DNA from: Campylobacterales bacterium
GTDB taxonomy: Bacteria > Campylobacterota > Campylobacteria > Campylobacterales > Sulfurospirillaceae
Reading direction: 5' to 3'
DNA length: 64,000 nucleotides
Assembly (NCBI GenBank): GCA_016930915.1
Contig: JAFGFU010000005.1
Span: 1-64,000, forward strand
Positions 23-13,128 of the stretch are shown here, piece after piece. The notes under the pieces were generated by a model that worked only from the letters and a program-made list of their open reading frames with translations, had not been told where the DNA came from and did no database searches. Position 1 is the first letter of the stretch. Each line of letters opens with the position of its first letter. Made by a program: the position numbers and the translations under genes.

Positions 23-37
23 TGATAATGGTTATTA
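23..37. promoter_or_regulatory. Putative Fur box upstream of exbB
   Basis: TGATAATGGTTATTA matches 12 of 14 informative positions of the 7-1-7 Fur pattern TGATAAT-N-ATTATCA. It overlaps a -10-like GATAAT and lies 17 bases before the exbB start, which fits iron repression of the exbB-exbD-hemP-tonB unit. The match is visible; Fur binding is inferred. Confidence 0.6.
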
Positions 38-1812: not shown

Positions 1813-1852
1813 TTTTCTTTTATGAAACAAAAAAGTTGTGAGGAAGCGTGAT

Positions 1853-3019
1853 ATGCAAAAAAAGATTTGGTTTTATACGCACTGGTTATTGGGATTGGTT
1901 GCGGGATTTATTTTGGTGATTGTGGGTGTAAGTGGGGCACTTTTATCGTATGAAAAAGAGATTATGGGATTGATGAATCAAAAAAGTTTTCGTATCGAGG
2001 CAAGCGCTAATGAAAAGCTTTCTCCTAATGTTTTGTTAAACGCTTTTAAAAAAGTACATCCTGATGCGGTTGTGGTTGGTTTACGTATGCTTTCTGATCC
2101 CAATGCTTCTGCTGCTATTATGGTGCAAGGCGCAAAAGAGGGTGGAAAAAATATGCTCAATTATTATATCAACCCTTACAGTGCAGAGCTATTGCCTGAA
2201 GCAAGAGGAGATACATTTTTTCGTGTAGTGTTAGAGGTACATCGAAGATTACTCTTAGGGGAGGTAGGTAAACAGATAGTAGCAGCATCCACGGTGGCGC
2301 TTTTGATACTCTCTTTTTCGGGGATTTATCTCTATTGGGGGAGTATCCGTAAGAGTTTAAAATCAAGCCTTAGCATCAACTTTAAAGCCAAAGGCAGAGG
2401 CTTTTTGTACAAATTGCACTCAGCTCTTGGCTTATGGGGTCTTTTGTTTTTTATTTTAATTTCACTCACGGGACTCACATGGTCGTATGAGTGGTATAGA
2501 ACTTCTTTGTACCGTATGGTTGGGGTTGAAGCGCCACAACACGGGATGCACCATGGGGGTGGTAAAAAACGAGATTCTTCATCTATGCCATCAGGACAAA
2601 AAAATTCAATGATGGACGGGGGTACGCAAAGTGCCCTGATTGCTCAAGCATGGGAGCTTTTTGAAGCCACACGTAAAGGTGAGTACAGCTTTGCATTTTT
2701 CCGTCTGCCTAATGGAAAAGGTAACGTTGAGTTTATGTATCTCGATAAAAAAGCACCTCATTCACGAGCGTTTAATACTCTCTTGGTGGATGCTAAAGAG
2801 GGTACAGTGCTTTCCCATGTCCGTTATGATGATAAGCGTGTGGCGGAGCAGGTGATGGGCAGTATGTTGCCACTTCACAGCGGAGAGTTTTTTGGATGGA
2901 GTGGACGGTTGTTAATCTTTCTCTCAAGTTTAAGTATGGTGCTTTTTGGAGTGACAGGGCTGATGCTCTATCTGGATAGACGTAAAAAAGCACGCAAAAA
3001 AGCAGCCCTTCGCATTTAA
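1853..3019 (+). CDS. PepSY-associated membrane protein
   Basis: About 388 residues of the PepSY-associated transmembrane family, which includes proteins of iron-siderophore and heme utilisation loci. Four membrane segments are visible: residues about 7-33 (THWLLGLVAGFILVIVGVSG), about 144-166, about 190-210 (YKLHSALGLWGLLFFILISL), and about 350-376. Membrane-embedded histidines near the cytoplasmic ends, as in b-type redox proteins, suggest electron transfer to imported ferric ligands, but this is inference. GAGGAAG at 1840-1846 is well spaced for the ATG at 1853, so the in-frame GTG at 1838 is not used as the start. Gene neighbours are tonB and a receptor. Confidence 0.78.
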   Translation: MQKKIWFYTHWLLGLVAGFILVIVGVSGALLSYEKEIMGLMNQKSFRIEASANEKLSPNVLLNAFKKVHPDAVVVGLRMLSDPNASAAIMVQGAKEGGKNMLNYYINPYSAELLPEARGDTFFRVVLEVHRRLLLGEVGKQIVAASTVALLILSFSGIYLYWGSIRKSLKSSLSINFKAKGRGFLYKLHSALGLWGLLFFILISLTGLTWSYEWYRTSLYRMVGVEAPQHGMHHGGGKKRDSSSMPSGQKNSMMDGGTQSALIAQAWELFEATRKGEYSFAFFRLPNGKGNVEFMYLDKKAPHSRAFNTLLVDAKEGTVLSHVRYDDKRVAEQVMGSMLPLHSGEFFGWSGRLLIFLSSLSMVLFGVTGLMLYLDRRKKARKKAALRI

Positions 3020-3086: not shown

Positions 3087-3101
3087 CGATAAAGATTATC
3101 A
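3087..3101. promoter_or_regulatory. Putative Fur box upstream of the first TonB-dependent receptor
   Basis: CGATAAAGATTATCA matches 12 of 14 informative positions of the Fur 7-1-7 pattern, with a perfect right half ATTATCA. It lies in the 230-base gap between the PepSY gene and the receptor, about 150 bases before the start codon. Two TTACATGTAA palindromes bracket the same gap (3036 and 3220). Confidence 0.6.
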
Positions 3102-3249: not shown

Positions 3250-5214
3250 ATGCGAAAAAAAGGCGTTTTAGGGCTTAGTTTGGTGGCATCTTTATGTTTA
3301 ATACCCAGTATTGGTTTAGCAGATGCCTTTGTAACCTTAGAGAGTGTGACTTTGATAGAAGAGTCTCTTAGTGGCATTGGCGAAGCCAAAGTGATTTCCC
3401 AAGAGAGTTTGGAAAAAACACAAGCCAAAGAGATGAAAGAGGTCTTTAAAAATGAGCCTTCCGTCTCGGTAGGCGGTGGGGCGAGAAATGCCCAGAGGGT
3501 TTATCTACGAGGTATTGAGGGAAACAATCTTAACATCACCATTGATGGCGCAAAACAAGGGGGGAGTCTGTTTCAGCACATGGGTGATGTGGGAAGTATT
3601 GACCCCTCTTTGCTTAAAAGCGTTGAGGTTTCAACCATTGCAGGAGCCGATAAAGGCAATGGGGCACTGGGTGGAAGCATTGCGTTTGAAACGGTGGATG
3701 CGCAAGATTTACTTCAAGAGGAGCAAGAGTTAGGAGCAACGCTTCGAGGTGGTTACTACAGTGCTTCCAAGGGCGTGCGTGGTGGGACTTCCGTGTATGG
3801 CAAAAGCGGGCATGTAGGCGTTTTACTAGATGTCTCTGGGCTCAATCAGCACGATTACCGCACAGGTGAGGGTGGTGATGCGGATAATACCGCTGTTAAA
3901 GATAGAAACTACTTCTTTAAAGCGAGTTTACTCGACTATTATGACCACAGTCTCAAAGTAGGGGCTACGCATACGACCAATGATGGGCATTATATTGCAG
4001 GCAGTTCTGGAAGCGATATGGGTGTTCCCAATCCAAATGTGGCGACCAGTCATATTAGCACGACACGTGATACCTATACGCTTGATTATCGTTACAATCC
4101 CCAAAGCGAGTGGATTGATCTTAAAGCCAATGTTTACTACAACGACCGCAATTACGACAATAAAACCAATAACACCGATGTCACCAGTGAAAACTACGGT
4201 GGAAACATTAAAAACAGTTTTGGTTTTGAAACAGGCGCTTTAAACCATTTTTACAGTGTAGGAATGGATTATGACATTGAAGATGGTGTTACTAAAACCA
4301 ACTCAGGCGACATCACCAACACCTCTAAAACCCTAGGCGCTTTTGCTCAAGGCAGTTCTAATTACAAAATTGCCACGTTGCGCTATGGCGTTCGTTTGGA
4401 TGAGTATTCCATCGAATACGGTCCTAGCAATGAAGTAACAGGGCATGAATTTTCCCCCAATGTTGGCTTAGATGTTGAACTCATCGAGGGATTGACCGCT
4501 TTTACCAATTACAGTGAGGCGATTAAAATCGGCAGTGTCATTCCTGTGCAATGGCTCTCTAACGCCAATGCAGCAACCACGTTTAATGGCACGTTAAATG
4601 GTGATTTGGAGCCTGAGAGTTCTAAACAAATTGAGGGGGGACTCCGCTATAAAACTAAAAACCTTTTGGCAGATACAGACAGTATTGTTTTAGGTATGAG
4701 CCTCTTTAAAACGACTATTTCAGATTTAATTTCGAAAAATCCAGCAGGTGGTCCTACCATTGCAAATATTTATAACAGCGATGTGGATGTCATCTCTAAA
4801 GGGTATGAACTTAAAGCCTCGTATGCCCTTGCTCCGTTTAAAACCTCACTAAGCTTTTTACATGCCAATGTGGAGGATGAAAACGGCGTAGCCATTTTAA
4901 GTAGACGTATTGCAGGTTCTGTGGGCGATACCTTGGTTTGGGACAATTCATGGTGCATTCATCCACAGTTTACTTTAGGCTATACGCTGACGTCTGTGGG
5001 TAAATTGGACGATGAGATTAAGCGGGATAGTTATGTGGTGCATGATCTCTCTTTGGAGTATAAACCTGCATCTTTGAAAAATTTAACGCTTTATTTTGCC
5101 ATTAACAACCTCTTTGATAAAGAGTATTACGCACAAACGTCATTTGAGAGCGGTGATACTTTGGTTGAAGAAGCGGGGCGTGATTTTAGAGCGTCCTTTA
5201 AATACGTATTTTAA
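3250..5214 (+). CDS. TonB-dependent outer-membrane receptor (heme/siderophore class)
   Basis: 654 residues with a signal peptide (about 1-25, ending GLADAF), a plug domain (about 40-150: KVISQESLEKTQ, VYLRGIEGNNLNITIDG, GALGGSIAFET) and a 22-strand barrel ending in the outer-membrane sorting residue Phe (RASFKYVF). It should bind an iron complex outside the cell and pass it through the plug using TonB. The plug style resembles hemin and hemophore receptors, which fits hemP next door, but I do not see the FRAP/NPNL heme signature, so the ligand is unassigned. AAGGAG sits 6 bases before ATG. It is followed after 18 bases by a DUF4198 gene, likely in one transcript. Confidence 0.85.
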   Translation: MRKKGVLGLSLVASLCLIPSIGLADAFVTLESVTLIEESLSGIGEAKVISQESLEKTQAKEMKEVFKNEPSVSVGGGARNAQRVYLRGIEGNNLNITIDGAKQGGSLFQHMGDVGSIDPSLLKSVEVSTIAGADKGNGALGGSIAFETVDAQDLLQEEQELGATLRGGYYSASKGVRGGTSVYGKSGHVGVLLDVSGLNQHDYRTGEGGDADNTAVKDRNYFFKASLLDYYDHSLKVGATHTTNDGHYIAGSSGSDMGVPNPNVATSHISTTRDTYTLDYRYNPQSEWIDLKANVYYNDRNYDNKTNNTDVTSENYGGNIKNSFGFETGALNHFYSVGMDYDIEDGVTKTNSGDITNTSKTLGAFAQGSSNYKIATLRYGVRLDEYSIEYGPSNEVTGHEFSPNVGLDVELIEGLTAFTNYSEAIKIGSVIPVQWLSNANAATTFNGTLNGDLEPESSKQIEGGLRYKTKNLLADTDSIVLGMSLFKTTISDLISKNPAGGPTIANIYNSDVDVISKGYELKASYALAPFKTSLSFLHANVEDENGVAILSRRIAGSVGDTLVWDNSWCIHPQFTLGYTLTSVGKLDDEIKRDSYVVHDLSLEYKPASLKNLTLYFAINNLFDKEYYAQTSFESGDTLVEEAGRDFRASFKYVF

Positions 5215-5232: not shown

Positions 5233-5868
5233 ATGAAAAAAAGTTTGTTGGCTTTTATGGCTATTATTGGATTAAGTGCGCCTTTGGCAGCTCATCAGGT
5301 GTGGTTGGAGCGTGAGGGCTCTGTCCTTCATGAATACTTTGGACATTGGCTAGCTTTTAAAGAAAAAGCAGATGGCAAACGTTTGGATGCGATTAAAGGC
5401 GTTGAGTTAAGTCCTAAAGATGCGTATCTTAAAACGGTAAGAGGTGAGGATGGCATTGCTATTTTTGTCAATAAAGTAGGCGATATGGGTGTGACTGAAG
5501 TCATGACGCCTCGTAAGGGAAAATTTGTTGATTTTACCGTGCGTACTATTTTTCTAGCCCGTGAGGGACGCAGTGAGAGTAAAACACTTTTAGCGCTTGA
5601 TATGGTTCCTGATTCCCCAAATAGTAATACGTTTACCCTAATGCTAGATGGAAAACCGCTTCCTAAAGCGAAAGTGGCACTCAAGGCTCCTAATACATGG
5701 AGTAAAAATTTCATGAGCGATGAAGCAGGAAAAGTGACCCTTCAAACGCCTTGGTTGGGTAATTATGTGGCACAACTCGATTACACCGATAAAACCAAAG
5801 GCGAGGCGGAGGGAATTGCGTATGACCAAACCAATTATGTGATGACCTTGCATTTTAGTGTGAAATAA
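5233..5868 (+). CDS. DUF4198 family periplasmic protein
   Basis: 211 residues with a cleavable signal peptide (about 1-20, cut near AA-HQVWLERE). The mature N-terminus HQVWLERE and the C-terminal Ig-like half (LDGKPLPKAKVALKAP, AGKVTLQTPWLGNYVAQL) are typical of DUF4198, a family found next to TonB-dependent receptors and nickel/cobalt or iron uptake genes. Its mature N-terminal histidine could bind metal; this is an inference. The gene follows the receptor by 18 bases with AAGGAG before its ATG and ends in a strong terminator. A second DUF4198 gene lies at 12085. Confidence 0.75.
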   Translation: MKKSLLAFMAIIGLSAPLAAHQVWLEREGSVLHEYFGHWLAFKEKADGKRLDAIKGVELSPKDAYLKTVRGEDGIAIFVNKVGDMGVTEVMTPRKGKFVDFTVRTIFLAREGRSESKTLLALDMVPDSPNSNTFTLMLDGKPLPKAKVALKAPNTWSKNFMSDEAGKVTLQTPWLGNYVAQLDYTDKTKGEAEGIAYDQTNYVMTLHFSVK

Positions 5869-5876
5869 GGCTGTGA

Positions 5877-5905
5877 AACGGCACACTAACGTGCCGTTTT
5901 TTTTT
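5877..5905 (+). terminator. Rho-independent terminator after the DUF4198 gene
   Basis: ACGGCAC (5878-5884) and GTGCCGT (5891-5897) form a 7-bp GC-rich stem with a 6-base loop followed by eight or more T residues. The T-tract runs directly into the TTACATGTAA palindrome at 5903. Confidence 0.9.
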
Positions 5906-5933
5906 ACATGTAAAGATATTTTGGAGAAAAAAA

Positions 5934-6242
5934 ATGAAAAAAAGTATAGTGGTTATAGGAATGATGGCTCTTTTAGGAAGCAGTGCGTTTGCGCACACAG
6001 CACTCATGAGTTGCATGGAAAATGCGGATGCGACCATTACCTGCGAAGCGGGATTTAGTGATGGCTCTAGTGCGGCAGGAGTGATGTTTAAAGTGGTGCA
6101 AGAGGGAAAGGTGGTTTTTGAGAAGAAGTTTGATGAGAACAGCGAGATTACCTTTAAAAAGCCACAAGGTGAATACACCGCCCTTTTTGATGGTGGCGAT
6201 GGGCATAGTTTGAGCATTCCTAGTCGCTCCATTTTGAAATAA
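5934..6242 (+). CDS. Small Cys-containing periplasmic protein, paralogue 1
   Basis: 102 residues: a signal peptide (about 1-20, MKKSIVVIGMMALLGSSAFA) and a mature protein beginning HTALMSC. It shares with the protein at 11705 a block His-X-Ala-X-Met-X-Cys, then TITCE-GFSDGSS-GV, and a C-terminal strand pair (TFKKP-G-YTA-F--GEGH). Two conserved cysteines and the first-residue histidine look like a metal or disulfide site. The C-terminal half resembles the tail of DUF4198 proteins. I do not recognise a named family. It sits between a DUF4198 gene and a TonB receptor, so a role in metal uptake is likely but unproven. Confidence 0.7.
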   Translation: MKKSIVVIGMMALLGSSAFAHTALMSCMENADATITCEAGFSDGSSAAGVMFKVVQEGKVVFEKKFDENSEITFKKPQGEYTALFDGGDGHSLSIPSRSILK

Positions 6243-6273
6243 TCGCTTTACATGTAAAAAGGAGATGTACGTA

Positions 6274-8328
6274 ATGCGAAGATACTTTATAGGAAGTTTG
6301 ATTGCCAGTGTGGCTTTGTATGCCAATGAGGTACATTTTTTGGATGAAATTGTCACCATTGGTACGAAGAGTGAAAAGAGTGTGAGTGAACAGACCACGC
6401 ATGTTGAGGTTATCAACTCCGAAGAGATTGAAAACTCAGGAGCGAGTAATCTCTCAGAAGTGTTAAATGCAACCCCTTTCGTATACGTTGCGCCCTCAGG
6501 TAAAACGATAAGCATTCGAGGGATGGGGCATTCTGATACGCTTTTATTGATTGATGGCAAACGGGTCAATGGCGAGTTTGCAAAAACCTATGAGCTAGAG
6601 CGAATTCCAGCTGGAATGATTGAGCGCATTGAGATTTTAAAAGGAAGTTCTAGTTTGCTTTATGGTAGCGATGCTATGGGTGGGGTGATTAATATCATTA
6701 CCAAAAAACCCTCCAATGAGGATGTGAGTGGCAATGTGCAAGTGATTGGTGGCAAAGATAAAGAGAGTGTGGACACCTTTGTTTCAGGCAGGGTCGATAA
6801 ACTCTCCTACACGTTTTATGCCAACTATCTCAACCGTGATGCCTACTCTAAGTCAAAAAGCACCGATGTTAAAGTAATGCAAGGAGGCGTCGAAAAATCC
6901 CCCTCTACGCTTAGCGGAGCAGGTGGATGGGCAAGTTTACGAAGCAACCTTTCAAACAGTTATACGATTAGCAACGACTACACCGATAATTTAGAAACGA
7001 AAAACGTGGGTGGCTCTTTAGCGTACGATTTTGGTGATTTTTTTAGAGCCTATATTGAAGCGTCCTATCTTAAAGAGAAAAAAGATGGGCTTTATGTGAG
7101 TGAAAGCTATGCAACCAACTATAAAAATGCGGGAAATACCATTATGGCAAAGTATATTCCAGCGCACCAATACGATGATAATGAGCGTTTTAATATTGCC
7201 ACAGGGTTTGATTATCATCCCAGTGAGACGCTTAAACTCACCTATAATCTTGCCTACTCTCGGTATGAAAAAGATAGAAAAGTCTATACCCCTTTATGGA
7301 GTGAACTAGGATACGCTTCCAAAGAAGCCTCCAAATCCAGTCTGAATGTCTCAACCTTAGAGTACCTCACCAATGATGCCCAACTTACATGGACGCTGGA
7401 TCAAAATAACCGCATTATTACAGGAGCGGAGCATCGCATCCATGATGCCACATCTACCGCATATAACGTGGATGATAGAACCTACACAGGGGCTTTTGTC
7501 CAACACGAATATACGCCTTTTGAAAAGCTCCATTTTGTTTATGGTGTACGATACGATAGAACCTCTACGCATGAAGAAGAGACTTCATTGAGCGTTGGGG
7601 CAACGTATGACCTTTTGGAGCGTTTAAAGCTTAGAGCCAGTTACGCTCAAGGGTTTCGAAGTCCTGATGATAGAGAACTCTATGTCAATCAAACCAACCC
7701 TAATGGCAGAAAAATGTTAGGCGCAACCGTGATTGATACGAGTGCTGGAAAGAGCTCGCAATACGACTTAAAGTCTGAAACAAGTGAAACCTTTGAAATA
7801 GGCTTTTTAACACACGGCGATAGCTGGATGTTCGATGTGGCAGCTTTTACTACCACCATTGATGATCGAATCTCCCAAGTCTCATACACAACTGGTGGTT
7901 CTAACTATAACACCTTTGAAAACATTAGCGACAGTGAAATTAAAGGGGTTGAGGCTACCTTTGATGTGGGATTGCACGAAAATGTTTGGCTTCAATTAGG
8001 CTATACCTACCAAGATGCTCAAAATAAAACAGAACATACCAAACTCTCAGATGTGCCAAAACGTATAGCAAGCCTGAGTCTTAGCTATACGCCTATAAAA
8101 AACCTTGAGTTTCGCTCAACCACCAAATATATCGGTGAGCAAGAGGGCATTGATGGAGAGGATGTGGGAGGTTTTAGTGTAACCAATGTGAAAGTGATTG
8201 CTAGGGAGCTTTTCAAAAACACCGATGTGTTTGCAGGCGTGGATAATGTGTTTGAAAAGAGAACCCCTGATTACTTAGGTTTGTTGCCTGAATTTGCTTA
8301 TTATGTAGGCTTTAATTATAAATTTTAG
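6274..8328 (+). CDS. TonB-dependent receptor, CirA/FepA-like
   Basis: 684 residues from the ATG at 6274; GGAG at 6261-6264 is correctly spaced for this ATG and touches the upstream in-frame ATG at 6265, which is therefore rejected. Signal peptide about 1-18 (cut near YA-NEVHFL), a TonB box-like DEIVTIG at the mature N-terminus, a plug (about 45-150 with ISIRGMGHSDTLLLIDG, LKGSSSLLYGSDAMGGVINI) and a barrel ending in FNYKF. The plug matches the catecholate-siderophore/colicin receptor group. It is the third gene after the small Cys protein and precedes a Spy-like gene by 8 bases. Confidence 0.87.
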   Translation: MRRYFIGSLIASVALYANEVHFLDEIVTIGTKSEKSVSEQTTHVEVINSEEIENSGASNLSEVLNATPFVYVAPSGKTISIRGMGHSDTLLLIDGKRVNGEFAKTYELERIPAGMIERIEILKGSSSLLYGSDAMGGVINIITKKPSNEDVSGNVQVIGGKDKESVDTFVSGRVDKLSYTFYANYLNRDAYSKSKSTDVKVMQGGVEKSPSTLSGAGGWASLRSNLSNSYTISNDYTDNLETKNVGGSLAYDFGDFFRAYIEASYLKEKKDGLYVSESYATNYKNAGNTIMAKYIPAHQYDDNERFNIATGFDYHPSETLKLTYNLAYSRYEKDRKVYTPLWSELGYASKEASKSSLNVSTLEYLTNDAQLTWTLDQNNRIITGAEHRIHDATSTAYNVDDRTYTGAFVQHEYTPFEKLHFVYGVRYDRTSTHEEETSLSVGATYDLLERLKLRASYAQGFRSPDDRELYVNQTNPNGRKMLGATVIDTSAGKSSQYDLKSETSETFEIGFLTHGDSWMFDVAAFTTTIDDRISQVSYTTGGSNYNTFENISDSEIKGVEATFDVGLHENVWLQLGYTYQDAQNKTEHTKLSDVPKRIASLSLSYTPIKNLEFRSTTKYIGEQEGIDGEDVGGFSVTNVKVIARELFKNTDVFAGVDNVFEKRTPDYLGLLPEFAYYVGFNYKF

Positions 8329-8336
8329 GAGAGAAA

Positions 8337-8747
8337 ATGAAAAAAATTGTTTTAGCCATGCTGTGTGTTTGTGTCTCTTTGATGGCAGAGGGGAAGAATC
8401 AAGCGTTTATTATTCATGATTTAATCACACTAGAAATGCCTGGTGGTGCGATTAAGAGTGGGGCATTGGAGCTCAGTGGCGATCAGGTGATTCGTATTTC
8501 TAAAGAGGTAAGACCCATTATGCATGAGACCTATCAATCCAAAATAAACGAAGCCTTTGGTCTGGAAAAACGAGTGCAAAAACTCTTAAAACAAGGCAAA
8601 TCCAAAGAAGAGGTTAAAACCTATCTCGATCAAATCGCACGTATTAAGCGAGAAGCAATGGATATTAAAATAGATGCATACAAAGCCTTTCAAGCGATTT
8701 TGACGCCTGAACAGTGGCAACGTTATTTAGCATTGAGTGAGCGTTAA
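8337..8747 (+). CDS. Spy/CpxP-like periplasmic helical protein
   Basis: 136 residues with a signal peptide (about 1-18, cut near LMA-EGKNQ) and a long helical mature part. ILTPEQWQRYLAL near the C-terminus matches the LTxxQ repeat of the Spy/CpxP fold, which includes periplasmic chaperones and metal-responsive proteins. The gene starts 8 bases after the receptor with AGGAG before ATG, so it is probably the last cistron of that unit. A metal-binding or chaperone function is inferred from the family only. Confidence 0.6.
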   Translation: MKKIVLAMLCVCVSLMAEGKNQAFIIHDLITLEMPGGAIKSGALELSGDQVIRISKEVRPIMHETYQSKINEAFGLEKRVQKLLKQGKSKEEVKTYLDQIARIKREAMDIKIDAYKAFQAILTPEQWQRYLALSER

Positions 8748-8793
8748 AAGTAAAATCGTGATGAATTGCGCAGAGAATAAGCACTTTCTAATT

Positions 8794-8818
8794 GAAAACA
8801 ACTATCAAAGTTATTTTC
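8794..8818. promoter_or_regulatory. 25-bp imperfect palindrome upstream of feoA
   Basis: The outer arms are GAAAACAACT and AGTTATTTTC, which pair except at one position, around the centre ATCAA. It lies about 50 bases before the feoA start, where an operator would be expected. It does not fit the standard Fur 7-1-7 pattern, so either a divergent Fur site or another regulator is possible. Confidence 0.5.
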
Positions 8819-8868
8819 TTTTAAGTCAAGTTGCTCTATCATTCCTGAATTAAATTTAAGGAAAGAGT

Positions 8869-9093
8869 ATGCATTTAGGTGAACTGAGAAAAGGGCAAAA
8901 GTGCACATTAGTCAACATTCATGGTGCGGGAAAACTCAAACAAAAACTTCTCGATATGGGATTTATTTTTGGAGTAGACATTGAAGTTGTTAGAGAAGCT
9001 CCTTTGTACGACCCGATGGAGCTGCGTATTCAAAACTATCTTGTTAGCCTAAGACGCAATGAAGCAACCCTTTTAGAGGTGAAAGTTTTATGA
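8869..9093 (+). CDS. feoA: FeoA, SH3-like partner of the ferrous iron transporter
   Basis: 74 residues of the FeoA SH3-like fold (LGELRKGQKCTLVNI, KLKQKLLDMGFIFGVDIEVV, DPMELRIQNYLVSLRRNEA). It is a small cytoplasmic protein needed for FeoB activity. GGAAAGAG precedes the ATG, and the stop overlaps the feoB start by 4 bases (ATGA), so the two are translationally coupled. Confidence 0.93.
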   Translation: MHLGELRKGQKCTLVNIHGAGKLKQKLLDMGFIFGVDIEVVREAPLYDPMELRIQNYLVSLRRNEATLLEVKVL

Positions 9094-11558
9094 TAAAAGT
9101 CGCACTTGCGGGGCAGCCAAATTGTGGAAAATCAACGATTTTCAATCTTGTCAGTGGTATTCATCAGCATGTTGCTAACTATCCAGGAGTTACCGTTGAT
9201 AAAAAAGTAGGGCGTTTTGACTATAAAGATAAAAAAATTGAAATAGTGGATTTGCCAGGAACGTACTCGTTTAGCTCCTATTCACTTGAAGAGCGGGTGG
9301 CTAAGGATTTTTTATACGATGAGTCTCCTGATATTATTGTCAACATTGTAGATGCTTCCAATATCAAACGCCATCTTTACCTCACCTTTCAGTTGCTTGA
9401 AATTGGTATTCCTGTAGTCATTGTCTTAAATATGATGGATGTGGCAAGTCGTAGAGGCATTTACATTGATGCACCTAAAATACAAGAGATGTTAGGTGCG
9501 CCTGTGGTCTGTGCGAGTGGTGCCAAAGGTGAGGGCGGTGAAGCGATTATGGAAGCCATTGTCTTAGCATACCAGCAAAAAGAGCAGTATCAAAATTTTA
9601 AGATTAATTATGAAGAACTAGAAGCGTTTATTCATGAGATTGAGGCTGAAATTGCTGAGGTGAATGTTCCTTTAAACAGACGTTGGTTGGCGATTAAGAT
9701 TTTAGAGGAAGATAAAGCGCTTGTGGAGAAGTTAGGTGATAATTTTACTTATTTGCAAGAAAAAGCTAAAGCGTGTGAAGAGCGTTTTCATGCGACGTAT
9801 GATAAAGATATTAGCGCATTTTTAGCGGCGATTCGTTATGACTCAGCCGATGTTATTTTTCATAAGTGTGTGAAAGTGACCAAATCGCATGAAGAGACAC
9901 TCACGGATAAAGTCGATAAAATCGTTTTAAACCGTTGGTTAGCCTTTCCTATTTTATTGTTGGTGATGTTTTTGGTCTATGAACTCTCTATCGTTTATGG
10001 GTACAAGCTGACCGATTACACGTGGCCCCTTTTAGCCATGTTTAAAAATTTTGTGATTGACATTTTGCCTGAGCCTGATTTGATTCGTGTGCCAATGATG
10101 ACAGATTTATCCATTTGGATGGTCAATAGTGCGATTGCATTGATTAACTACATTCCTATCTTTTTTATTCTCTTTGCGTTGATTGCGATTATGGAAGATG
10201 TGGGTTATATGCCACGCCTTGCGTTTATTTTGGATAAGGTCTTTAAAAAATTTGGACTTCACGGTCAATCAACGCTTCCTTTGGTTTTAGGCGGAGCGAT
10301 GGTTGGTGGGTGCGCTGTTCCTGGGGTTATGTCTACCAAAGGCATTGCCGATGAGAGAGCGAGAATGGCAACCATTTTAGCGGTTCCTTATATGAACTGT
10401 TTGGCAAAAGTTCCTTTTTACACCCTTCTTTTAGGCGCATTTTTTAAAGAAGAGATGGGCTTGATGATGTTTTACATCTCAACGGTGACTCTTTTTATTG
10501 CGCTGATTGTCTCCAAACTTTTAACCAGCACCGTTTTAAAAAATAGAGAAACGGCTCCTTTTGTCATGGAATTACCACCGTATCATTTACCCACTTTTAA
10601 GGGGGTGATTATTCGTTCAGCACAAAGGGTGTGGGTTTATATTAATAAAGTAGTCACCATTGTTTTAGCCGTGGCGATTGTTCTCTTTGCGATGTTACAG
10701 TTTCCAGGTTTGAGCGAGGAATCGCAGCAAAAATACGATGAAAAAATAGTACAAGCGCTCAGTACATTTGATACAAAAGTCAAAAAATCTTCTTATTATG
10801 AGAGGGTCGATACGAAAGAAGAGGTTTCAGCGCTTATCAATTACTATGATAACTACAAAGCCAAACGTATGGTTGTCTCTGGTGCAGAGGGGGCAAAAAG
10901 CGTGGATGAGTCATTTTTGAAAAAAGATGCAAAGCTCTTTATTTTCGTAAAACCTGAAAACGATAAAGATGCCAAAATGATCAATAGCGCTTTGCGTCAG
11001 ATATCCAATGTCAGAAAAGATGTGTTGCGTCAGATTAAAAACGAAAAAATTGAAAATAGCTTTTTGGGCATGGTGGGACATTCCATGGAGCCCGTGACAC
11101 AGTTTGCAGGATTTGATTGGAAGATTAACGTGGCATTTTTAAGCTCTTTTGCTGCACGTGAGAGTGCGGTAGCCACGCTGGGTTCTTTGTATGAAAATAA
11201 TAAAGCAGATTCCAAACGTGCGGAAGAAGCGATGTATGAGAATAGTGGATATACGCCATTACATGCGGTGGCGATTATTATTTTTATGATTTTAACGCCT
11301 CCTTGTATTGCGACGATGATTGTGGTGAAGATGCAGTCTAACAGTTACAAATGGATGTTTTTTGCGATTTTCTTTCCAATTACATTGGGTGTTATTATCT
11401 CCTCATTTCTCTTCTCTTTTGGCTCCGTAGCGGGTTGGAGTGGAGTAGAGGCGATGAGTTATTTTTATGTAGTGGTTGTCTTTTTAGCGTTATTTTTAGG
11501 CTTGATACCAAACCGTCAAAATGGCTGGTTAGGTGGATTTAAACATAAGAGTTCTTGA
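9090..11558 (+). CDS. feoB: FeoB ferrous iron transporter
   Basis: 822 residues: an N-terminal G-protein domain with G1 GQPNCGKST (8-16), G3 VDLPGTYSF, G4 LNMMD and a GDI-like helical part to about 270, then the membrane domain with the two Gate motifs (conserved Cys in GGCAVPGVMSTKG and PYMNCLAKVPFYTLLL) and a C-terminal ILTPPCIATMIVV segment. It imports Fe2+ across the inner membrane. Compared with E. coli FeoB it carries an additional soluble stretch at about residues 545-655 between membrane segments, rich in Lys and Glu. The last codons and the stop lie inside a hairpin that begins a dispersed repeat. Confidence 0.95.
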   Translation: MIKVALAGQPNCGKSTIFNLVSGIHQHVANYPGVTVDKKVGRFDYKDKKIEIVDLPGTYSFSSYSLEERVAKDFLYDESPDIIVNIVDASNIKRHLYLTFQLLEIGIPVVIVLNMMDVASRRGIYIDAPKIQEMLGAPVVCASGAKGEGGEAIMEAIVLAYQQKEQYQNFKINYEELEAFIHEIEAEIAEVNVPLNRRWLAIKILEEDKALVEKLGDNFTYLQEKAKACEERFHATYDKDISAFLAAIRYDSADVIFHKCVKVTKSHEETLTDKVDKIVLNRWLAFPILLLVMFLVYELSIVYGYKLTDYTWPLLAMFKNFVIDILPEPDLIRVPMMTDLSIWMVNSAIALINYIPIFFILFALIAIMEDVGYMPRLAFILDKVFKKFGLHGQSTLPLVLGGAMVGGCAVPGVMSTKGIADERARMATILAVPYMNCLAKVPFYTLLLGAFFKEEMGLMMFYISTVTLFIALIVSKLLTSTVLKNRETAPFVMELPPYHLPTFKGVIIRSAQRVWVYINKVVTIVLAVAIVLFAMLQFPGLSEESQQKYDEKIVQALSTFDTKVKKSSYYERVDTKEEVSALINYYDNYKAKRMVVSGAEGAKSVDESFLKKDAKLFIFVKPENDKDAKMINSALRQISNVRKDVLRQIKNEKIENSFLGMVGHSMEPVTQFAGFDWKINVAFLSSFAARESAVATLGSLYENNKADSKRAEEAMYENSGYTPLHAVAIIIFMILTPPCIATMIVVKMQSNSYKWMFFAIFFPITLGVIISSFLFSFGSVAGWSGVEAMSYFYVVVVFLALFLGLIPNRQNGWLGGFKHKSS

Positions 11559-11679
11559 AGAACTCTTGACACACCTTTAAAGCAAAGCTCTAAAGGCTAC
11601 GTTAACACTGGGTTTTCTTCGGCAGAAAGCCCGCGCACCCTTGGTGCTTTTCTTTCTAGCAAAATGAGTTTTGCAAGAA
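11547..11679 (+). repeat. Structured intergenic repeat, copy A
   Basis: About 133 bases that recur in inverse orientation at 22810-22943 with about 88 percent identity by eye, and in a shorter divergent copy at 41061-41150. Four hairpins in order: AAGAGTTCT/AGAACTCTT (around the feoB TGA), CCTTTA-AGC/GCT-TAAAGG with an AAA loop, GGGTTTTCT/AGAAAGCCC with a TCGGC loop, and GCACC/GGTGC followed by GCAAAA/TTTTGC. No coding frame of note. It may act as the feoB terminator, or may be a small RNA or palindromic repeat element. Confidence 0.85.
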
Positions 11680-11704
11680 GCCCATACTTTATAAAGGAGA
11701 AAAA

Positions 11705-12007
11705 ATGTTGAAAAAAACAGTATTTGGGATGTTAGTGGTTGCCAATTTACTTTTCGCACACTCTGCGATTATGAATTGCTTTGATAATGGTGATGGTACG
11801 ATCACATGCGAAGGTGGCTTTAGTGATGGCAGTAGTGCGAGTGGTGTAGAATTTAGGGTGGAACAAGATGGCAAGGTTCTTCTTAAAGATAAGATGAGCA
11901 AAAACAGTGAATTTACCTTTAAAAAACCAAGCGGTACGTACACCGCTATTTTTAATGCAGGTGAGGGACATCAAGTTGTGATTGATGGTAAGGATATTGT
12001 TCAGTAG
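11705..12007 (+). CDS. Small Cys-containing periplasmic protein, paralogue 2
   Basis: 100 residues, clearly paralogous to the product at 5934: signal peptide (about 1-18, cut near LLFA-HSAIMNC), then H-A-M-C, TITCEGGFSDGSSASGVEFRV and a closing TFKKPSGTYTAIF-AGEGHQV. Both cysteines and the first mature histidine are kept. It follows feoB and precedes another DUF4198 gene, just as paralogue 1 sits beside the first DUF4198 gene, so the small protein and DUF4198 protein seem to travel as a pair. Function unknown. AAAGGAG lies 6 bases before ATG. Confidence 0.72.
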   Translation: MLKKTVFGMLVVANLLFAHSAIMNCFDNGDGTITCEGGFSDGSSASGVEFRVEQDGKVLLKDKMSKNSEFTFKKPSGTYTAIFNAGEGHQVVIDGKDIVQ

Positions 12008-12012
12008 GCTTT

Positions 12013-12038
12013 AATACTCTTTTTTGGGAGTATTTTTT
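12013..12038 (+). terminator. Rho-independent terminator after the small Cys protein gene
   Basis: AATACTC (12013-12019) pairs with GAGTATT (12028-12034), followed by a T-run to 12038. It separates this gene from the Fur-box-preceded DUF4198 gene. Confidence 0.85.
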
Positions 12039-12050
12039 ATGATTTTTAGA

Positions 12051-12065
12051 TGATAGTAATTATTA
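12051..12065. promoter_or_regulatory. Putative Fur box upstream of the second DUF4198 gene
   Basis: TGATAGTAATTATTA matches 12 of 14 informative positions of the Fur 7-1-7 pattern. It lies 20 bases before the start codon at 12085, just after a terminator, as expected for an operator. Confidence 0.6.
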
Positions 12066-12084
12066 ACATTATAAAGGATTTTTT

Positions 12085-12906
12085 ATGACAAAGAGTTTTC
12101 TTAAGGTTGCGTTGGTTTCTTCAGTGATTGCTTCAAGTGCATTAGCACACTTTCAAATGCTTTATACGCCAAATATGGCACTCGAAAAAGGTGGTAAGAT
12201 AGAATTACGTCATGTTTTCACTCACCCCTTCGCAGATGAACATACCATGGATATGGGAAAACAACATGACAGTGACGCTCTAGCGCCTGTGGTGGATTTT
12301 TTTGCAGTTAATAAAGAGCAAAAAACCGATTTAAAAGCAACCCTTAAAGAGATTACCTTTAAAGGCAATCATAACAGTGGTAAAGGCTTTGCTTCTGAGT
12401 ATAAAGCACAAAAAATGGGTGATCATATTTTGGTGTTAACACCAGCACCTTATTATGAAAAAGGGGAAGATGCGTATATTCAGCAAATTACCAAAACCAT
12501 CGTGAATGTTGCGGGAACACCAACGGATTGGGATGCAGATTTGGGGCTTAAAGCAGAAATCGTGCCTTTAACAAAGCCTTATGCTATTTGGGAAGGTGGC
12601 AGTTTTACTGGGGTTGTTAAGTCCAATGGCAAACCTGTACCTTTTGCAGAAATTGAAGTGGAATATATCAATCGTGATGTGGATATAAAAAACAATAAAA
12701 TGGGAAAAGACCGTGTCAAAGCCCCTCAAGACGCGTTTGTCACGATGGGCATTAAAGCCAATAAAGATGGTGAGTTTACCTTCGCACTTCCAAAAGCAGG
12801 ATTTTGGGGCTTTGCCGCATTAGGTGTTGGACCTGATAAAGAGTATAAAGGTAAAGAACTCAGTCAAGATGGGGTTATTTGGGTGGAAGCAAAACCGATG
12901 AAATAA
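12085..12906 (+). CDS. DUF4198 family periplasmic protein, Fur-box associated
   Basis: 273 residues with a signal peptide (about 1-22, cut near ALA-HFQMLYTP). The mature protein starts with histidine, carries a His-rich loop (HVFTHPFADEHTMDMGKQHD, about residues 48-67) and ends with an Ig-like domain (GKPVPFAEIEVEYIN, DGEFTFALPKAGFWGFAALG). This is the longer DUF4198 form found near cobalt, nickel and iron uptake systems; the His-rich loop suggests metal binding. It has its own promoter region with a Fur-like box. The stop is followed by a long hairpin. Confidence 0.78.
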   Translation: MTKSFLKVALVSSVIASSALAHFQMLYTPNMALEKGGKIELRHVFTHPFADEHTMDMGKQHDSDALAPVVDFFAVNKEQKTDLKATLKEITFKGNHNSGKGFASEYKAQKMGDHILVLTPAPYYEKGEDAYIQQITKTIVNVAGTPTDWDADLGLKAEIVPLTKPYAIWEGGSFTGVVKSNGKPVPFAEIEVEYINRDVDIKNNKMGKDRVKAPQDAFVTMGIKANKDGEFTFALPKAGFWGFAALGVGPDKEYKGKELSQDGVIWVEAKPMK

Positions 12907-12987: not shown

Positions 12988-13128
12988 ATGCTTGAAAACA
13001 TTTTTTTAGGATTGGTGACGTTAGGTGCTATCTACTATCTTTATCGAACACTCTTTAAAACGAAAGGCTGTGGCTGTGGTAAGGATAGTTGCAATATTAA
13101 AAAAGCAGTTATTGAAAAAGACAAATAG
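12988..13128 (+). CDS. FeoB-associated Cys-rich small membrane protein
   Basis: 46 codons: one N-terminal membrane helix (about residues 3-20) followed by a basic linker and a short cysteine cluster CGCGKDSC. This is the layout of the FeoB-associated Cys-rich membrane protein family, thought to assist ferrous iron transport or membrane iron handling. It is one gene away from feoAB, after the DUF4198 gene, in the direction of transcription. Too short for most gene callers. A ribosome site is weak (ACAAGG at 12975-12980). Confidence 0.7.
   Translation: MLENIFLGLVTLGAIYYLYRTLFKTKGCGCGKDSCNIKKAVIEKDK

Follow-up and report, generated by a model that had tools for sequence, protein, structure and literature searches.

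Histidine-1 periplasmic proteins of the NikK and NikL families as candidate ferrous-iron partners of a large class of FeoB

FeoB is the main bacterial importer of ferrous iron, and how it is supplied with iron on the periplasmic side is, to our knowledge, an open question. The closest described relatives of the proteins considered here come from nickel transport. NikK and NikL were named in 2004 as additional periplasmic components of the NikMQO transporter, possibly binding nickel (PMC545781); a 2009 study pointed out orphan copies lacking NikMQO that perhaps do not depend on nickel (PMC2667541). The 2025 structure of IsDUF4198 from Ideonella sakaiensis has Ni(II) bound by the first-residue histidine and His18; Ni(II) is the preferred metal, with a Kd of 18 nM, and the metals listed in the accessible part of its description do not include Fe(II) (PMC12537917). 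The initial annotation of the locus regarded its parts as lacking an assigned function. This view does not hold, as they are relatives of NikK and NikL (PMC545781, PMC2667541), and one DUF4198 protein has been solved as a Ni(II) protein (PMC12537917); the families and the general metal theme are not new. DUF4198 also occurs in 1,500 PepSY-like flavinylation clusters (PMC8238504). In Caulobacter, DUF4198 genes are strongly regulated by Fur (PMC3751524), and in Alteromonas they adjoin iron-responsive TonB receptors and are themselves iron-responsive (PMC7190382). In the literature searched we found no description of FeoB arranged with DUF4198 or NikK, nor of periplasmic FeoB partners.

The island described here lies in the window, that is, the whole stretch of 64,000 nucleotides analysed. 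Open reading frames were present at all the positions initially given, and the features are as follows.

1838..3019, + strand: PepSY_TM membrane protein (PF03929, 211.8 bits), candidate ferric reductase of the island
3250..5214, + strand: TonB-dependent receptor 1, closest to a heme/haemoglobin-type family but under the cut-off of that model
5233..5868, + strand: K1, exported DUF4198-like protein, 211 aa (PF10670, 22.6 bits, sub-cut-off; profile match to K2)
5934..6242, + strand: L1, soluble NikL-like small Cys protein, 102 aa (NF058648, 39.5 bits), in the clade linked to TonB receptors and PepSY
6265..8328, + strand: TonB-dependent receptor 2 (family-model match)
8337..8747, + strand: small exported protein, weakly Spy/LTXXQ-like, adjoining feoAB in close relatives too
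8869..9093, + strand: FeoA, 74 aa (PF04023, 66.6 bits)
9090..11558, + strand: large-class FeoB, 822 aa (TIGR00437, 482.3 bits), with an extra helical segment at about 541-656 and a longer C-terminus
11705..12007, + strand: L2, soluble NikL-like small Cys protein, 100 aa, 3' of feoB (NF058648, 41.8 bits)
12085..12906, + strand: K2, exported DUF4198 (NikK-like) protein, 273 aa (DUF4198, 185.5 bits)

Family models confirm FeoA, FeoB and both TonB-dependent receptors; the resemblance of the product at 8337 to Spy is weak only (LTXXQ, 14.9 bits against a cut-off of 24.3). Close relatives keep the order ExbB-ExbD-TonB-PepSY-TonB receptor-K1-L1-TonB receptor-Spy-FeoA-FeoB-L2-K2. Just 3' of K2, at 12988-13128, the window encodes a 46-aa single-helix protein with a CGCG...C motif and no Pfam match, which by eye resembles the FeoB-associated Cys-rich proteins.

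As in the NikK and NikL components of NikKMLQO (PMC545781, PMC2667541), the same two families are adjacent, exported and equipped with an N-terminal histidine. However, the partner of the small protein is here FeoB and not NikM, NikQ or NikO. NikM/CbiM (PF01891) gave no match in the window genome, which is 99% complete, while the same model finds NikM in relatives; a nickel ECF system in this genome was rejected for want of CbiM/NikM. The L2-K2 pair is not a member of the NikKMLQO group and would work like the periplasmic accessory pair of an importer. The K1-L1 half can be compared with the PepSY-like iron-reduction clusters (PMC8238504), in which DUF4198 and PepSY_TM share a Fur-regulated iron locus; one such cluster, Caulobacter CCNA_03155-03159, combines DUF4198 with a flavinylated DUF2271 protein (PMC3751524, PMC11870441). 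Unlike these clusters, the island has a NikL-like partner, no DUF2271 or ApbE gene was noticed adjacent, and its second half goes with FeoB. In outline, EfeUOB/M likewise equips an inner-membrane iron permease with a periplasmic iron protein of its own (EfeO/M, PMC9174327), but the families are unrelated and the permease of that system is EfeU, not FeoB.

The claim of two paralogous small exported proteins with a first-residue histidine and two cysteines was borne out: L1 and L2 are 51% identical, and H19, C25, C35, E36 and H89 (L2 numbering) are invariant in 38 homologues, H19 being taken as the first mature residue from a signal peptide predicted by eye on an A-x-A-like motif. The single NCBIfam model that matches L1 and L2, over its first half only, is NF058648 ('NikL family nickel/cobalt ECF transporter subunit'). 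Each of the 38 short L proteins matches it (best E 4.1e-13); L2 covers model positions 3-88 of 180, corresponding to the N-terminal half of NikL, with 41.8 bits against a cut-off of 100. This cut-off is strict, since the L proteins of two nikKMLQO operons also stay below it (58.8 and 74.9 bits). In contrast to NikL, the small proteins are soluble and carry a conserved cysteine pair; the C-terminal transmembrane segment is absent and both stop after the soluble domain (100-102 aa), while a hydrophobic C-terminal segment is present in long L relatives of about 160-175 aa. The predicted structure of L2 is a seven-strand beta-sandwich (pLDDT 89), in which C25 and C35 lie on adjacent hairpin strands in a register that would face them, and H19 and H89 open the first and the last strand, respectively; in the model, therefore, C25 and C35, and likewise H19 and H89, would be close together. 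A search by sequence for a solved structure of L gave none that was convincing. By fold, the best match was a domain of alpha-2-macroglobulin (Z 12.3), a sandwich of the common macroglobulin/Ig type that gives no indication of function.

Of the two DUF4198 genes originally proposed, the one at 12085 is secure, K2 matching Pfam DUF4198 (PF10670) with 185.5 bits against a cut-off of 34 over profile positions 1-207 of 209, whereas K1, at 5233, falls short of the gathering score (22.6 against 34) and is recovered as a distant member by profile comparison only. Alignment of the K1 and K2 homologue profiles (hhalign: probability 96.7%, E 3.3e-10, 22% identity) supports the placement of K1 in a distant DUF4198 subfamily. 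K2 is also 35-37% identical to the proteins in the NikK position of two nikKMLQO-type operons. In K2, H22 (predicted mature H1) and H47 are invariant in 32 sequences, as is M55; in K1, H21 (predicted mature H1) is invariant and H38 is kept in at least 90% of 10 sequences. Both proteins therefore appear to have the DUF4198 metal-site pattern of a first-residue histidine and a second conserved histidine. With respect to the H1/H18 site of IsDUF4198 (PMC12537917), they agree in family and first residue, and H38 of K1 also falls on mature position 18; they differ in standing in an iron island, and the second histidine of K2 is at mature position 26. The K1 profile matches PDB chains 9mhi and 9mhk (E 3e-14), deposited as phosphoribosylglycinamide formyltransferase, which is probably a naming error; our literature search found no publication behind these entries. 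The two deposited variants are distinguished by histidines close to the N-terminus, a difference that suggests the probing of a metal site.

The two gene pairs do not represent one duplicated unit, as had been supposed: K1 and K2 belong to different subfamilies, the genes stand in opposite order (K1-L1 but L2-K2), and the L tree puts L1 and L2 into separate clades. A recent duplication of a two-gene module was rejected given the identity of about 22% between K1 and K2 and the separation of L1 from L2. Three rows of the tree (L138, L155 and L160) are mislabelled or badly cut, which leaves the conclusion on clades unaffected. The best reading is that K1 and L1 belong to a TonB-receptor/PepSY branch. 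K1 adjoins PepSY genes in seven loci (L028, L070, L099, L111, L117, L118 and L150).

The FeoB proteins of 397 Campylobacterota genomes split into two classes. The large class has a median length of 826 aa. Its proteins, found in 45 of the genomes, are at least 49% identical to the window FeoB, mostly over the full length, and ordinary FeoB proteins are about 31-37% identical to it over some 560 residues. The window protein matches TIGR00437 (482.3 bits, cut-off 315.65; FeoB_N 214.3 bits). After a predicted membrane helix, FeoB of the large class has an insert of about 115 residues (541-656) where an ordinary FeoB has a far shorter stretch, and its C-terminus is longer. AlphaFold2 renders this segment as helices (block pLDDT mostly 74-88), and it is probably periplasmic, as judged from the positively charged residues that precede the helix before it. 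The insert alone is insufficient to define the class: a second FeoB copy of 794 aa in L162 also has a long loop at this position, which weakens the insert as an all-or-nothing marker. Among the Foldseek matches listed for the whole FeoB model, the known structures were those of the G-domain (NFeoB) only. Two more FeoB genes of the window genome are ordinary and lie on other contigs, which lack L; all its L genes are on contig C14. In genome G066 the large feoB gene is in three pieces (L075:6146-8392), and the L and K2 genes 3' of it are intact.

Across Campylobacterota the short soluble Cys L gene nearly always stands 3' of feoAB and is usually followed by K2; the long NikL-like proteins with a membrane helix are encoded 3' of TonB receptor and PepSY genes instead, and nikKMLQO operons occur at L101 and L102. 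For a wider survey, GTDB contigs were scanned with the alignment of short Cys L proteins, and the best 80 of 359 relatives, that is, the closest ones, were kept; 61 short L genes among them had enough flanking DNA and were not at a contig edge. Within 1.5 kb of these, feoB was found in 58 of the 61 loci and a DUF4198 gene in 56 (both in 53, FeoB only in five, DUF4198 only in three, neither in none). Since the loci were picked by L alone, this result is not circular. The loci come from Campylobacterota, Thermodesulfobacteriota, Deferribacterota, SAR324, Myxococcota, Proteus faecis and Vibrio intestinalis. Thus the co-occurrence of the small Cys protein with DUF4198, on which the initial annotation had staked its proposal, is strong, and the two go together in many families and several phyla, with FeoB as well. 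A plasmid search returned 12 records, all under 60% identity. In V. intestinalis (L192:8785-10309) one DUF4198 gene lies between two different short L genes.

The short L is present in 43 of the 45 Campylobacterota genomes with large FeoB and in none of the 352 others (Fisher p about 1.1e-55, uncorrected for kinship). Genomes that have it and genomes that lack it alternate inside genera and also across families f1, f5, f6, f9, f11 and f14. The two exceptions with large FeoB (G007 and G019) have no L or K2 beside feoB, so the pair is not strictly needed. A gene of G007 that stands 3' of a PepSY gene (L203:1204-1704) encodes an exported protein of 166 aa, again with a first-residue histidine, which may be an L that has diverged strongly. 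The genes may be closely joined, as in L027 (G028), where the L reading frame overlaps the stop codon of feoB. However, feoAB and L-K2 are divergent in L177, L178, L189, L191 and L192, so that the association is not merely read-through from feoB. In the window itself, the gap between feoB and L2 is 146 bp and K2 has a Fur-like site of its own, hence feoB and L2-K2 need not share one transcript; a terminator-like hairpin lies between K1 and L1 (5875-5900).

Fur-like sites were scored in silico against TGATAATNATTATCA, out of 14 positions. Those of the window include the following.

23..37, unstranded: Fur-box-like site 5' of exbB, 12 of 14
3087..3101, unstranded: Fur-box-like site 5' of TonB-dependent receptor 1, 12 of 14
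8793..8807, unstranded: Fur-box-like site 5' of feoA, 11 of 14
12051..12065, unstranded: Fur-box-like site 5' of K2, 12 of 14

Only five sites in the 64 kb score at least 12 of 14, and four of them are in intergenic DNA of the island, preceding exbB, TonB receptor 1, K2 and a porin; the 1,149 bp of island intergenic DNA hold eight sites of at least 11 of 14, against 0.23 expected. Upstream of feoA in the module loci, predicted sites of at least 11 of 14 were found in 56% of cases in Campylobacterota (11% in shuffled sequence) and in 32% in the GTDB set (6% shuffled). The delta-proteobacterial Fur consensus showed little enrichment in Campylobacterota and was set aside. The window genome carries Fur-family genes and a NikR. 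The clustering of predicted sites upholds the description of the locus as an iron island, which is probably iron-regulated.

Taken on balance, it is somewhat probable that L2 and K2 form a dedicated periplasmic Fe(II)-binding accessory pair feeding the large-class FeoB. From homology, conservation, gene linkage, co-distribution, predicted folds and Fur-like sites we infer that the proteins bind metal, that this metal is Fe(II) and that it is handed over directly, and likewise the order of transfer between L and K and the docking site. The TonB receptors would carry ferric or heme iron into the periplasm, where Fe(II) could be made, for instance, by the PepSY protein reducing imported ferric iron; for the related protein VciB, a helping role in Fe(III) reduction is reported (as cited in PMC8238504 and PMC11870441). 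The L and K proteins would hold Fe(II) through their first histidines, and in both L2 and K2 the invariant second histidine, together with His1, could make up a facial site of three nitrogens for a divalent metal. L2 and K2 would then pass Fe(II) to the large FeoB, probably docking on its extra helical periplasmic domain, and K1-L1 may perform an analogous early step beside the receptors and the PepSY protein. Against Fe(II) stands the Ni(II) preference in the published DUF4198 metal data, as far as the accessible part of that source goes (PMC12537917). The locus is best read as encoding a periplasmic donor to FeoB, and the central idea of the initial annotation is strengthened in its main direction.

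A third gene context bears on the source of the iron. In L073, L079, L091 and L184, a CobN/magnesium-chelatase-like gene, whose product has about 1,390 aa and a signal-like N-terminus, is followed by L and K2, together with a TonB receptor. By family and context these loci seem to resemble the hmu heme operon; there the de-chelatase HmuS releases ferrous iron, for which FeoB has been proposed as importer (PMC12583661). At loci with such a CobN/HmuS-like gene, Fe(II) may come from heme de-chelation. More broadly, there may be a widespread FeoB subclass fed by a histidine-1 periplasmic pair from the NikK and NikL families, these types being general metal-delivery modules for NikMQO, PepSY systems, HmuS-like loci and FeoB; we offer this wider picture tentatively, as one that could well prove right or wrong.

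It is unlikely that the large FeoB, L2 and K2 together serve the uptake of nickel, cobalt or another divalent metal, with the pair retaining the metal preference of its NikK and NikL relatives. The NikL match of all 38 short L proteins and the 18 nM Kd of a DUF4198 protein for Ni(II) (PMC12537917) are what such a role would lead one to expect, but the partner feoA, the Fur-like boxes and the TonB/ExbBD, Dps, PepSY and CobN/HmuS-like neighbours point to iron. The nickel reading is also favoured by a NikR in the window genome together with no detectable NikM/CbiM, and by the lack of CbiM in about 16 of the 43 short-L genomes, where the nickel need would then be met otherwise. On the other side, CbiM is present in about 27 of the 43, so the module is no simple replacement for it, and the contig of the island also carries a gene for a NicO-type nickel/cobalt transporter.

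It is quite improbable that L2 and K2 are factors for the assembly, gating or protection of FeoB and not carriers, for example by keeping periplasmic loops transport-competent or by binding stray metal against Fenton damage. Such factors would account for the tight linkage to a single FeoB class with an extra domain, and invariant cysteines on adjacent strands suit a structural disulphide, but the invariant histidines at the predicted N-terminus suggest contact with metal, and the same families occur with NikMQO and CobN/HmuS-like genes away from feoB, where a FeoB-specific role would be inapplicable. Finally, that these genes are neighbours merely as Fur-regulated iron-starvation genes of separate pathways (K1-L1 in siderophore or heme uptake, K2 alone) is very improbable, for although feoA and K2 have separate Fur-like sites, terminator-like hairpins occur in the window and a minority of L loci lack an adjacent DUF4198 gene, shared regulation alone would not keep the order feoA-feoB-L-K2 across phyla and leaves unexplained the joint presence and absence of the short L and one FeoB class across genera.

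In following a single FeoB class from phylum to phylum, this gene pair provides directly testable candidates for periplasmic partners of FeoB. If the donor reading is true, FeoB has periplasmic substrate-delivery partners, and a role is found for part of the orphan NikK and NikL genes whose independence of nickel was considered possible in 2009 (PMC2667541). Caution is in order in labelling such NikK- and NikL-type genes nickel transporters. The hosts include species of Campylobacter, Helicobacter, Proteus and Vibrio, and many sulfate- and metal-reducing bacteria.

Genes for an ABC ATPase and a DUF4857 membrane protein often stand 3' of K2 (DUF4857 within 6 kb in 24 of the 61 loci), for example in L123, L124, L128, L144, L145 and L192, sometimes with a GGDEF gene between. 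In Bacteroides thetaiotaomicron, iron starvation induces a DUF4857-ABC-PepSY-TonB-receptor locus 37- to 128-fold (PMC10434189). Elsewhere on contig C14 of the window genome, at about 71.4-75.3 kb (L023:7415-11298), a TonB receptor gene and a PepSY gene, each in two open reading frames, stand 5' of a long NikL-like gene; in the relative L032 the same two genes are unbroken, encoding 677 and 529 aa.
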